64,000 nucleotides of DNA from Pseudomonas fluorescens. Its GTDB lineage: Bacteria; Pseudomonadota; Gammaproteobacteria; Pseudomonadales; Pseudomonadaceae. Numbering within the stretch: the stretch's first letter is position 1; every line of letters begins with the position of its first letter. The notes beneath the pieces were generated by a model. It saw only the letters and a list, made by a program, of their open reading frames with translations, did no database searches and was not told the DNA's origin. The position numbers and the translations under genes are program-made. Below are positions 16,389-49,317 of this stretch, in pieces. The stretch is from positions 4,476,501 through 4,540,500 of the forward strand of contig NZ_CP015225.1 of NCBI RefSeq assembly GCF_001623525.1, written 5' to 3'.

Positions 16389-16423
16389 GTATGGGCAGTG
16401 CAAAAATAGTCAGAATTCAGGGG

Positions 16424-16451
16424 TTTACAGAACGCACCCAATCGCTATAAT
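16424..16451 (+). promoter_or_regulatory. sigma70 promoter of tRNA-Thr
   Basis: TTTACA (16424-16429) and TATAAT (16446-16451) are separated by 16 bases, and the tRNA begins 13 bases after the -10 box. Confidence 0.75.
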
Positions 16452-16463
16452 CGTCGCCCACAC

Positions 16464-16539
<76 letters not shown>

Positions 16540-16547
16540 TACAAAAC

Positions 16548-16580
16548 GAAGCCCTCGTAGAAATGCGGGGGCTTTGTTGT
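16548..16580 (+). terminator. intrinsic terminator of tRNA-Thr
   Basis: AAGCCCTCG pairs with CGGGGGCTT across a short loop (one G-T pair), followed by the T-rich TGTTGTTT. Confidence 0.75.
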
Positions 16581-16695
16581 TTCTGGAGGTTGAACCTTCC
16601 TAGGAGCTAGATAAGACCGATATCGCCTTAATCAGCATCCACAGACCAAACCTTTCCTGCGCTCCTACCCGTTACAATTTCACGTCAGGACAATG

Positions 16696-16723
16696 TTGAC
16701 GGTCTCTTACACCGACCTATAAT
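16696..16723 (+). promoter_or_regulatory. sigma70 promoter upstream of the Abi gene
   Basis: TTGACG (16696-16701) and a consensus TATAAT (16718-16723) are separated by 16 bases. Transcription would start near 16730, about 78 bases before the Abi start codon, directly at the 5' side of the structured segment described next. Confidence 0.7.
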
Positions 16724-16729
16724 ACGCCC

Positions 16730-16791
16730 CAACACACCCGCCAAGCCTAGGTTGACCCAGTCAGCAAGCTCAAATCGTGCGGGTTTTTTTT
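16730..16791 (+). ncRNA. putative small structured RNA upstream of Abi gene (AbiF-RNA-like)
   Basis: From the predicted start near 16730, ACCCGC (16736-16741) pairs with GCGGGT (16779-16784), directly followed by eight T residues (16784-16791), like an intrinsic terminator. Inside this stem a second hairpin forms: GTTGAC (16751-16756) with GTCAGC (16760-16765) around the loop CCA. The segment would be a self-contained RNA of about 60 nt ending just before the Abi ribosome-binding site (GGAGA at 16795). Conserved RNAs are known upstream of AbiF genes; identity with that class is inferred from position and shape, not from a covariance search. It could instead be only a leader attenuator. Confidence 0.55.
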
Positions 16792-16807
16792 GCCTGGAGA
16801 AAACTAC

Positions 16808-17797
16808 ATGAGGCCCTTCGACAAGCCGGCTCTCAGCGTAGAACAGCAATTGGAACTGCTAAAGCAACGAGGTTTGCACATCGCCAACGATGATCGAGCC
16901 ATGCGTTTTCTCGAAGTGGTCACGCTGTTTCGCCTGAGTCCCTACATGCGCCCCTTTCAGGAGCCAGACCCTGAACATCCCTTCAAGCCCGGCAGCACAC
17001 TGAAGGCAATCGTCGATATTTACCGCTTCGATGGTACGTTGCGGCGCATCACCATGGATGCCATCGAACGTGTCGAAGTCGCCATACGGGCGACTATCAG
17101 CAATCATATGTGCCCCAAGTACGGGCCTGACTGGATAGCTGACGCGTCCGTCTTCTCCTCGTCATACTCACACACCGATTTGTTGCGTCCATTGCGGGAG
17201 CAAATGAATAAGGAGCGCAGTAAACTCAAACGTGATATCGACCGCATCAGAAAGGGCCGACAAGCCGATGGGCTCCAGCAACAGCGGATCGAAAACCGCA
17301 TGCGTGACAATTATTTCCGATATTACGGTGCAACCTATGCCCACCCGGAGTTGCCGCCCGCTTGGGCGGTCCTGGAAGAACTCAGCCTTGGGACGGTATC
17401 TGCCCTCTTCAATGCCATAGGCAGAAGCGCCGACAAGAAAGCTATCGCCACCAGATTCAGCCTGCCCTTCGAAGTACTGGCCTCCTGGCTACACACGCTG
17501 ACCTTCATTCGCAACTGCTGTGCCCACCACTCACGGCTATGGAACCGAGAGCTCTCGATTCGACCATCCTTACCTAAAGAATGGGCCATTCCCACTGCCC
17601 CCGCCGACCAGCCTCAGCCCAAACAGCGTCTATACGTCGTATTGACGATGCTGGCCTACCTAACCGACCTGATCAGCCCTGACAGCCAGTGGAAGCTTCG
17701 CCTGGCCGAAATCATGGATCAGCAGGAACTGGATTATTTGAGGCTCATGGGATTTCCAAATGATTGGAAAGATCAACAGCAATGGCGCCTAGCGTAG
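16808..17797 (+). CDS. Abi family (AbiD/AbiF, HEPN) abortive infection protein
   Basis: This 329-residue Abi_2 family protein opens with the family start PFDKPALSVEQQLELLKQRGL. It has the central block YRFDGTLRRITMDAIERVEVAIRATISNH and the C-terminal HEPN ribonuclease-type motif RNCCAHHSRLWNRELSI, an exact R-x4-H. Family members act in abortive infection or toxin-antitoxin style phage defence, and the HEPN motif suggests RNA cleavage. A charged helix (about residues 118-160) is inserted before the HEPN half. I chose the ATG at 16808, preceded by GGAGA, over an earlier frame start. A dedicated promoter and a structured RNA lie directly upstream. No second protein partner is present. Confidence 0.87.
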   Translation: MRPFDKPALSVEQQLELLKQRGLHIANDDRAMRFLEVVTLFRLSPYMRPFQEPDPEHPFKPGSTLKAIVDIYRFDGTLRRITMDAIERVEVAIRATISNHMCPKYGPDWIADASVFSSSYSHTDLLRPLREQMNKERSKLKRDIDRIRKGRQADGLQQQRIENRMRDNYFRYYGATYAHPELPPAWAVLEELSLGTVSALFNAIGRSADKKAIATRFSLPFEVLASWLHTLTFIRNCCAHHSRLWNRELSIRPSLPKEWAIPTAPADQPQPKQRLYVVLTMLAYLTDLISPDSQWKLRLAEIMDQQELDYLRLMGFPNDWKDQQQWRLA

Positions 17798-17835
17798 AGA
17801 AACTCGAAACAGACTGCGGTTAATTCCCTGCTTCA

Positions 17836-18265
17836 TCATTCCAGCCAAAAATCGTGGTCTGTCCCCTCGAATCCAAAAGCCATGACGCCTGTGAATACAA
17901 ACATTCGGCCATCCCATAGCAAATCAGGGGCTGGTGAATTGAAGGGAAGGTCCGTTGGCGCAACGGCAAAAGCTCCGCCAACCTTTGATCTCTCAATGCC
18001 CAGGCCAGAAAAGCTACGCAGAATATTAAGCAGCTCAAGAGACTCGTCCGGGTCCAGAGCATCGTCCTGAAGCATGGACGCCAGACGCGAATACAACAGA
18101 TTGATCACCGGGTCATTTAGATGGGCGAGGTTGTTTTCCAACCATTGTTTTTTAAAAAAATCTCTTCGCTGGTCTTCACGACACCGTCCCGAGCACGAAC
18201 GACTAACCAACACCCGCATACCAAGCGCCACCGCAGGGCATCCGCCCTGATAGATGCGAGCCACT
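17836..18265 (-). pseudogene. truncated, frameshifted BRCT-domain protein gene
   Basis: The readable part (KKQWLENNLAHLNDPVINLL, then SLELLNILRSFSG, then PDLLWDGRMFVFTGVMAFG) fits Pseudomonas BRCT-domain proteins, whose BRCT begins with the FVFTG strand. The match stops abruptly after VMAFG and runs into the 17-bp repeat at 17850-17866, so most of the BRCT domain is missing. Upstream of the KKQWL region the likely continuation (DGVVKTSEEIFL) is in another frame, and the break falls at the homopolymer TTTTTTTAAAAAA near 18150-18163. It therefore looks broken at both ends. The family assignment is from memory of the conserved blocks and is moderately sure. Confidence 0.6.
17850..17866 (+). repeat. 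17-bp inverted repeat, left copy
   Basis: AATCGTGGTCTGTCCCC occurs here, and its exact reverse complement occurs at 19759-19775. The copy lies within the truncated end of the BRCT remnant. In other gammaproteobacteria this type of phrase flanks REP-associated transposase genes, but no transposase is present here. Confidence 0.75.
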
Positions 18266-18325
18266 AATTTGACAGCATGCAAACGAGCAGCTATAGATCA
18301 AAAGCCCGCTCAAAAAGGACTTGAT

Positions 18326-18676
18326 ATGCGCTTACTTCTCACTCTGTTGGGCTTGAGCTTGGGCTTATCTGGTTGTTCGTTTGTCTCGATCACTGGTGCC
18401 ACAACAACCGAACGCTTTATCAACGTCGGTCCCGTGTTACTCAAAACCGATCAGCCCGCACGCGCGATAGTCACTTCTACGCTCGGCGTGGGCGCAACAA
18501 ACTTTCAAGGCACCACCAACATCGGCTATGTCGACCAAGAAGTAGTTGTTATCCCCAATGCTGCCGGGTGTGAACTCATCCTCATAGTTAGAAATCACCA
18601 AGAGCTCGAACGAGCGAAACAGATCCTGGGGGATGCCCTCAAGCATGCCTGCACCAACGACAAGGAAGCACTATGA
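18326..18676 (+). CDS. small predicted lipoprotein
   Basis: This 116-residue protein starts MRLLLTLLGLSLGLSGCSF, a lipoprotein signal peptide with lipobox LSGC (Cys17). The mature domain is beta-rich then helical, and no family is recognised. AAGGA precedes the ATG at 18326. The stop overlaps the start of the next lipoprotein gene by four bases, so the two are translated as a pair. The GC content is lower than in core genes of the window, suggesting acquisition by transfer. Confidence 0.7.
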   Translation: MRLLLTLLGLSLGLSGCSFVSITGATTTERFINVGPVLLKTDQPARAIVTSTLGVGATNFQGTTNIGYVDQEVVVIPNAAGCELILIVRNHQELERAKQILGDALKHACTNDKEAL

Positions 18677-48548: not shown

Positions 48549-48630
48549 TGTGGCGAGGGAGCTTGCTCCCGCTTGGTTGCGCAGCAACCAGAAAAGGGAG
48601 TCGCAGCCCAGCGATACCCCCTCGCTACAG
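48549..48630. repeat. REP doublet, second copy diverged
   Basis: GTGGCGAGGGAGCTTGCTCC at 48550-48569 is a good copy. The inverted partner (CGATACCCCCTCGCTACAG) has several changes, unlike the other doublets in the window. Confidence 0.8.
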
Positions 48631-48648
48631 AGTACTTTCCAGCGCCCA

Positions 48649-48680
48649 CAAAAAAGGCCGTTTTCCATAGAAAACGGCCT
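48649..48680 (-). terminator. minus-strand intrinsic terminator with no annotated gene upstream
   Basis: AGGCCGTTTTC (48655-48665) and GAAAACGGCCT (48670-48680) form a perfect 11-bp stem with loop CATA. The six A residues before it on the plus strand read as a T-tract on the minus strand, so it terminates minus-strand transcription. Confidence 0.7.
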
Positions 48681-48773
48681 GTCCGAAGTAGCTAAAGACC
48701 GACCAAATTGTCTAAAGTTCCCACCAAAAAACAATAACTTAGAGAATTGTGCACAAGTCGTGTTACTCGTCGG
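48649..48773 (-). ncRNA. candidate unannotated small RNA
   Basis: A TACAAT on the minus strand (48785-48780) could start an RNA near 48773 that runs about 125 bases to the orphan terminator at 48649-48680. The body contains GGTGGGAACTTTAGACAATT and no convincing open frame. The -35 element is poor. The terminator is the main evidence; the RNA itself is a hypothesis. Confidence 0.3.
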
Positions 48774-48837
48774 ATTTCTATTGTAACCAAGCGAAGCCAG
48801 CCTCAGGATCGCGCCGTCATCCCTTTGAGGCTCCTCT

Positions 48838-49317
48838 ATGAAGTTCTCCTCCATTCTCTTGTTGTCCCTTAGCCTGGCCAGTGGCATCGCTTCCGCCGGT
48901 GGTACTGCCGAAGCAGGTGTGGGCGGCGCATTGGGCGGGGTTTTGGGTTCGGTCGTCGGCCAGTCCCTGGGCGGCAACACCGGCTCCACTATCGGCGCGG
49001 CGCTGGGCGGCGCGGGCGGCAGTGCAGTCGGTGCAGACAAACACAGCCGCGGCGAAGCAGCGATCGGCGGCGCGCTGGGCGCAGCCGGCGGTAACGTGGT
49101 CGGTCGCAGCGTCGGCGGCACCACTGGCAGCCTGATCGGTGCGGCAGCGGGCGGCGGCGCTGGTGGTGCCCTGGGTAACTACATGGGCCAGGACGATGAC
49201 GATGATCGTCACTATGACGGTCGCCGTGGTGATCGCCGCTACTACCGTGACGGCCACCCAGGTCGTGGCCATGCCTACGGGCATCGCAAAAAACATCATC
49301 GCTACTACCGCGACTAA
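48838..49317 (+). CDS. glycine-zipper exported protein
   Basis: This 159-residue protein has a signal peptide (FSSILLLSLSLASGIASA), then about 95 residues of Gly-rich zipper repeats (GGALGGVLGSVVGQSLGGNT and two more rounds) that could insert in a membrane. A tail rich in Asp, His, Arg and Tyr (DDDDDRHYDGRRGDRRYYRD) ends in a metal- or nucleic-acid-like basic cluster. The family has no settled function. It is monocistronic with a bidirectional terminator after it. Confidence 0.85.
   Translation: MKFSSILLLSLSLASGIASAGGTAEAGVGGALGGVLGSVVGQSLGGNTGSTIGAALGGAGGSAVGADKHSRGEAAIGGALGAAGGNVVGRSVGGTTGSLIGAAAGGGAGGALGNYMGQDDDDDRHYDGRRGDRRYYRDGHPGRGHAYGHRKKHHRYYRD

Follow-up and report, generated by a model that had tools for sequence, protein, structure and literature searches.

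ToxIN-type III toxin-antitoxin systems have an RNA antitoxin encoded 5' of the toxin gene, with a terminator between the two, and the RNA inhibits the toxin through direct RNA-protein contact. The Pseudomonas locus analysed here shares this layout, with an RNA 5' of the toxin gene and a terminator between them, but its predicted toxin is a HEPN RNase and its RNA is a single hairpin unit, rather than a tandem repeat array. PbAbiF-AbiFr, a system from a Prevotellaceae bacterium, includes a protein that is homologous to the AbiF of our locus and has been solved with its ncRNA (PDB 8vz6); a review (PMC12737573) gives one ncRNA per PbAbiF monomer and a single-strand RNase activity.

In the work on RCd22-AbiF from the C. 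difficile phage phi027 (PMC12373285), transcription of the abiF-motif RNA RCd22 mostly terminates before the gene, with read-through giving a long mRNA. RCd22 neutralises AbiF in cis and in trans, AbiF is its main partner through RNA-protein binding, and substitutions of R202 and H207 abolish the toxicity of AbiF (PMC12373285). Our locus and RCd22-AbiF have in common an abiF-motif RNA directly 5' of an Abi_2 HEPN gene, one promoter, a Rho-independent terminator before the gene and an R-x4-H motif. However, RCd22 is described as 98-132 nt long, with two abiF motifs followed by a terminator (PMC12373285), whereas the RNA reported here would have one motif in ~62 nt, with P1 as the terminator stem; RCd22-AbiF is found in a phage lysis module, whereas our unit is chromosomal and lies beside a tRNA gene. 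The C. difficile phage proteins and the protein of our locus have ~23% identity.

The window, by which we mean the whole 64-kb stretch of DNA analysed, corresponds to positions 4476501-4540500 of a single-contig 6.92 Mb Pseudomonas genome, and the nearest named loci to its abiF gene are from Pseudomonas sp. SJZ074, P. corrugata and P. brassicacearum (95-96% protein identity). The abiF RNA lies directly 5' of abiF on the same strand, with the end of its U-tract 16 nt before the start codon (Table 1). The start was set at the ATG at 16808, rather than at the mechanically listed TTG at 16790, because of the spacing from the ribosome-binding site. The reading that we favour, with a probability of about 0.88, is that the RNA and the protein of this locus form a two-part, type III-like toxin-antitoxin unit of the same kind as AbiF/AbiFr. 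The computations made here cover the conservation of the promoter, the folding of the RNA, the family, fold and catalytic motif of the protein, the linkage between RNA and toxin and the direction in which loss occurs; RNA binding, neutralisation, read-through and RNase activity are what would be expected of the window unit from its homologues. It is a known, recently characterised kind of unit, and its fresh aspects are the minimal architecture (one motif, ~62 nt, with the terminator inside the antitoxin fold), the one-way loss, the copies embedded in restriction-modification (R-M) operons and an RNA class unscored by Rfam. No paper that looks to be on this Pseudomonas unit was found in the open-access library searched, but we do not claim that it is unpublished. 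AbiF has been proposed as the single-HEPN starting point of Cas13, and compact chromosomal Pseudomonas examples would be useful for studying how a HEPN RNase is held in check by an antitoxin RNA; the repeated loss of the toxin with the RNA kept, together with the placement in R-M operons, provides leads on toxin release and on the role of solitary antitoxin RNAs.

Table 1. Features of the abiF locus (positions in the window)
Feature	Position	Strand	Basis and remarks
tRNA-Thr (TGT)	16464..16539	+	ARAGORN; recurrent upstream neighbour of this abiF clade
-35 element TTGACG	16696..16701	+	Promoter scan; invariant in 23/23 orthologues
-10 element TATAAT	16718..16723	+	Promoter scan; 5/6 columns invariant in 23 orthologues
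abiF RNA, proposed RNA antitoxin and attenuator	16730..16791	+	RF03085 match, covariation; ~62 nt predicted, exact ends inferred
P1 closing stem, also the terminator stem	16736..16784	+	16736-16742 with 16777 and 16779-16784, U16778 bulged
P2, 3 bp	16744..16770	+	16744-16746/16768-16770; fold and covariation
P3, variable apical hairpin, 6 bp	16751..16765	+	16751-16756/16760-16765, one G-U
Single-stranded CAAAUC between P2 and P1	16771..16776	+	Conserved in aligned RNAs; Rfam consensus alignment
U8 tract completing the intrinsic terminator	16784..16791	+	First U is the last base of the P1 stem
Ribosome-binding site GGAG	16796..16799	+	8 nt 5' of ATG 16808; mean identity of 16792-16807, 0.976
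abiF (Abi_2 family HEPN toxin), 329 aa	16808..17797	+	ATG 16808, stop 17797
HEPN RNxxxH motif RNCCAH	17510..17527	+	Residues 235-240; sole R-x4-H in the protein

In the proposed toxin-antitoxin unit, one promoter would yield mostly a short RNA of ~62 nt, because the closing stem of the RNA and the U8 tract form an intrinsic terminator. This short RNA would fold as the abiF motif, bind the AbiF HEPN ribonuclease dimer and hold it inactive, and occasional read-through of the terminator would give the AbiF mRNA; both the discrete 62-nt RNA and the read-through into abiF are predictions. Since P1 of the motif is itself the terminator stem, antitoxin folding and the end of transcription would be a single event, and since the mRNA would arise by read-through of the antitoxin's terminator, the same folding event would both make the antitoxin and limit the toxin. 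An excess of antitoxin would be built in, with read-through setting the dose of toxin. If this balance were upset, most plausibly by phage infection, free AbiF would cleave RNA and growth would stop.

The first-pass annotation had placed a consensus promoter (TTGACG, 16-nt spacer, TATAAT) before this RNA, and both elements are present at 16696-16723. Two promoter-like sites were found in 1.9 kb, against a mean of 1.5 after shuffling, and the match by itself is not significant; the promoter call is supported by conservation, not by the match alone. In 23 distinct close orthologues (24 hand-chosen class-A loci, of which one was a duplicate; L048 and L050 were among the loci not included), mean column identity was 0.63 upstream, 1.000 in the -35 element, 0.79 in the spacer and 0.986 in the -10 element. 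It reached 0.995 in the abiF RNA (56 of 62 columns invariant), a value biased upwards by the choice of loci containing the RNA core (none of the 24 was dropped for absence of the RNA); over the initial 209 nt of the abiF gene it was 0.927. This pattern fits a promoter-driven RNA under constraint stronger than that on the protein gene.

The same annotation had described a terminator-ended RNA just before the ribosome-binding site, with an outer stem, a run of eight T residues and an inner 6-bp hairpin. The outer stem (ACCCGC, 16736-16741, with GCGGGU, 16779-16784), the U8 tract and the inner hairpin were all recovered, and the U8 tract ends at 16791, with GGAG starting at 16796; however, the 3-bp middle helix, the C16742-G16777 pair and the single-stranded CAAAUC had been missed. 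Single-sequence folding of the abiF RNA was ordinary (z -1.74, with 11 of 200 shuffles equally stable), and this simple energy test was therefore dropped as evidence of structure. Covariation was used instead, because the energy of the single RNA was unexceptional. The terminator scan, which permits loops of 3-8 nt only, did not list the terminator of the abiF RNA.

Of the 32 distinct class-A/B RNAs that the pattern search had given, 30 were used for the first alignment (A1; L007 and L048 omitted), which also contains sequences from loci lacking a full toxin (e.g. L068, L069, L074 and L122). Standard pairs filled 98.3% of its 479 pair cells, against 86.8% after shuffling; both sides had changed in 57 cells (23.9 shuffled; 0/500 shuffles as high) and in 6 of the 16 pairs (4.0 shuffled; 11/500 shuffles). 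A larger alignment (A5) of 41 RNAs, comprising the 32 with L007 and L048 included, L054 and eight RNAs from toxin-less loci, gave 98.3% pairing in 647 cells, 8 of the 16 pairs with changes on both sides and 82 such cells against 30.1 shuffled; none of 500 shuffles was as high on any of the five measures, but with related sequences the shuffle control makes significance look greater than it is, and the structure came from the same RNAs. When the partner was slid by 1-3 columns, pairing fell to 27-40%, and RNAalifold recovered the helices on its own. P3 holds most of the compensatory changes. The outer pair of P2 is U-A in 22 and A-U in 19 of the 41 RNAs, and two of the seven P1 pairs have changes on both sides (A-U to G-C in two RNAs and G-C to A-U in one), with the second P1 pair broken in four RNAs (L052, L048, L188 and L192). 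Across the alignment, the U8 position is rich in T, with some bases substituted. Of the 41 RNAs, 40 keep the AAAU of the P2-P1 bulge, the exception (L193) having only a toxin remnant, and we infer that CAAAUC is a candidate toxin-contact segment.

These features bear on the possibility that the RNA acts in cis only, as an attenuator or leader whose terminator hairpin sets AbiF expression without binding the protein. The closing stem and U8 tract do lie directly before the ribosome-binding site and the terminator of the C. difficile RNA lowers downstream expression (PMC12373285). However, the conserved CAAAU bulge, the covarying P2 and the conserved 5' leader would be needless for a plain terminator, and, in C. 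difficile, neutralisation by the RNA works in trans and the RNA is recovered together with the purified protein (PMC12373285). We consider a role restricted to attenuation quite improbable.

Membership of the abiF class and a two-part RNA-protein unit, both suggested by the first-pass annotation, are supported by a match to RF03085, by the homology to PbAbiF and by the compensating changes described above (8 of 16 pairs in 41 RNAs), which it had proposed to look for upstream of homologues. The Rfam covariance model, another check that it had proposed, matched at the exact place (16737-16784; 34.2 bits, E 7e-4 in 2 kb), with agreement at all displayed consensus letters, and in a search of the whole 6.9 Mb genome this match stood alone at E≤1 (E 5.7e-4). 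Nevertheless, the score lies just under the curated gathering cut-off of 37, and the RNA was therefore missed by the search of the window at the gathering threshold. A homologous RNA in another genome (G145) scores above the Rfam cut-off, at 42.9 bits. The window RNA and the RF03085 model share the outer and middle helices and the consensus letters CCCGCCAAGCCU ... GCUCAAAUCG ... GCGGGU, but the apical insert is 19 nt long in the window and 9 nt in the model consensus, and this longer insert probably explains the sub-threshold score. At the level of sequence and predicted structure, the window RNA is homologous to abiF RNA and built like it, although it falls under the formal Rfam cut-off. RF03085 is independent of the present alignments, whereas our model R1 was built from A1, and its scores for A1 rows are therefore circular. 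Weak RF03085 matches of 25.3 bits, of which one genome had as many as six, were disregarded because they probably belong to a repeat element: a 37-nt sequence scoring ~25 bits and probably part of such an element was found 2 to 6 times per genome in G045, G085, G289, G227 and G265 (e.g. L140 and L141). Elsewhere in the window, the Pseudomonas sRNA P34 was matched at 48573-48938 on the minus strand (172 bits).

The gene had been assigned to the Abi_2 family of HEPN proteins, and this assignment stands: the window protein has an Abi_2 domain (155.6 bits, against a curated cut-off of 25.6), an R-x4-H motif and the AbiF fold, and its predicted fold is confident over the full length. Its RNCCAH motif (residues 235-240) aligns with RNSCCH of 8vz6, and R235, N236, A239 and H240 are invariant in 25 aligned sequences. 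An ancestral relationship between AbiF and Cas13 is a published claim about the family (PMC12737573; PMC12373285), and is not demonstrated for the window gene. Cas13 was absent among the Foldseek/VIA-align structural matches of the window protein, with which the published relation is still compatible, and the protein has one R-x4-H in 329 aa, where a type VI effector requires two; no direct repeats of at least 14 nt, as part of a CRISPR array, were found in the stretch scanned (16390-18400). Thirty comparisons with relatives sharing 80% identity or more (in some cases one sequence fetched twice) gave dN/dS ratios of 0.050-0.135, indicating that abiF is under purifying selection, as judged from these sequences. 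It is very improbable that the locus is a decayed remnant, no longer functional in this genome: toxin loss is common at such loci (17 of 41 RNA places), but the reading frame, catalytic motif, ribosome-binding site, promoter and RNA are all intact in the window, and both the dN/dS values and the confident full-length fold argue against decay.

A relative of the window protein was identified at E≤1e-10 in 66 of 298 Pseudomonas genomes, and all 23 full-length toxins with at least 45% identity (L001, L004-L016 and L018-L026) carry the RNA just upstream; no full-length toxin of this clade without the RNA was found in the 298 genomes. A scan of the genus with R1 recovered the same 23 toxin loci and showed a clear break in scores, with 41 places scoring at least 47 bits, then single matches of 39.6 and 35.7 bits, followed by short matches below 33 bits, mostly terminator-like pieces of ~30 nt that were treated as noise; the genus scans were run with stricter filters, and weak matches were lost. 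The 39.6-bit (G080) and 35.7-bit (G079:C86, before a full-length distant toxin) matches were left out of the 41 places. A full-length toxin follows the RNA in 24 of these places (the 23, together with a more distant toxin in G255), and the other 17 have a broken toxin or none. The abiF gene behind the RNA is truncated, interrupted or mostly deleted in G040, G158, G031, G114, G210, G214, G237 and G246, and there is no toxin or only a short N-terminal remnant in G079 (two places), G192, G187, G227, G180, G034, G077 and G230. Absence was judged by tblastn searches of regions no longer than 8 kb or, for G180, on the genome protein search and gene list; at G079:C48:466887, the contig has only ~1.2 kb downstream of the RNA.

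That the toxin disappears while the RNA stays is the pattern predicted for an antitoxin, although an RNA of value as a terminator would likewise persist for some time. Where the RNA remains alone, the toxin may have been lost recently, or the RNA may be kept simply as a useful terminator; a more tentative suggestion, which we regard as unlikely, is that solitary RNAs outlive the toxin because they are useful alone, as a shield against incoming AbiF or as leaders tuning restriction genes. It is very improbable that the RNA regulates other mRNAs as a trans-acting sRNA, with an incidental position beside abiF, since, although it looks like a discrete promoter-terminator unit and toxin-less copies exist, 23/23 full-length toxins of the clade carry it and C. 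difficile gel shifts with six mRNAs gave one weak complex, the protein being the main partner (PMC12373285).

A full tRNA-Thr(TGT) was found upstream, within the 3 kb fetched, in 13 of the 20 loci L033-L052. In other Pseudomonas (L034, L043 and L139), abiF is flanked by incomplete copies of the 3' end of tRNA-Thr or of the tRNA terminator. In P. corrugata (L034, 2658-5487), the abiF stretch lies between the tRNA-Thr and an 88-nt partial copy running from the tRNA into its terminator, and a phage-integrase-domain gene, scoring 27.8 bits where the cut-off is 27, lies close to abiF in L043. The tRNA-Thr/abiF site therefore looks like an insertion hot spot. An integrated element in the window itself was considered and rejected: no second copy of the tRNA-Thr 3' end with three or fewer mismatches was found in the 64 kb, and 16390-18400 has no direct repeat of at least 14 nt, so that these scans give no sign of an attachment site here, in contrast to the other genomes. 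In L139, abiF is interrupted by an insert carrying a transposase gene (rve and HTH_21), and the 5-nt overlap matches window positions 17335-17339.

The whole RNA-toxin unit was also found inside type I R-M operons, where it separates hsdR from hsdM, in L018, L019 and the Marinomonas locus L056. The RNA without a full toxin is still in this position in G034 (L192) and G077 (L193). In G180 (L147), it is directly 5' of hsdM-hsdS, and the RNA of G187 (L190) lies after the end of hsdR and ~2.3 kb before hsdM.

Other Abi_2/AbiF genes, most with the HEPN letters RNRCAH, are preceded by a distinct terminator-ended structured RNA. In the alignment of this second class (A4; 15 sequences, from L105, L106, L114, L115, L117, L119, L121, L123, L124, L127, L129, L132, L133, L135 and L143), 98.4% of 192 cells were paired and 4 of 13 pairs had changes on both sides; for each measure, 0-1 of 500 shuffles reached the observed value. 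The corresponding model (R2) identified 30 places in 29 of the 298 Pseudomonas genomes at E≤1e-4, part of them being the model's own rows, and 12 of the 30 had no adjoining relative of the window protein at E≤1e-10. Two more abiF-like RNA classes were seen by eye 5' of Abi_2 genes, one in L098, L109 and L112 (R1 scores of 28.6-31 bits) and the other in L104, L110, L126 (23.3 bits) and L128. Among 20 sources searched at E≤10, RF03085 matched only L096, and none of nine A4-class loci or of seven loci of classes D and E, which were recognised by eye.

No abiF-like RNA was seen, at the sensitivity used, beside the Abi_2 genes of a group with ~30% identity, which includes the second Abi_2 gene of this genome and was drawn by eye, partly by the absence of the RNA itself. 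Judging from the adjacent DNA, an Abi_2 protein does not always need an abiF RNA, as the paralogue in this genome and other Abi_2 genes have none beside them. This paralogue (L002/L148; L148:4796-5803, G000:C1) is an Abi_2/HEPN gene with the motif RNVCAH, located 286 nt 3' of a tRNA-Arg, with no adjacent abiF RNA at the sensitivity used. In L150 (7228-12098), an Abi_2 gene directly follows, with a 4-nt overlap, a gene for a 1288-aa reverse transcriptase domain protein, and the Abi_2 gene of L155 (6839-7837) lies directly after an apparent hsdS gene, identified by eye.
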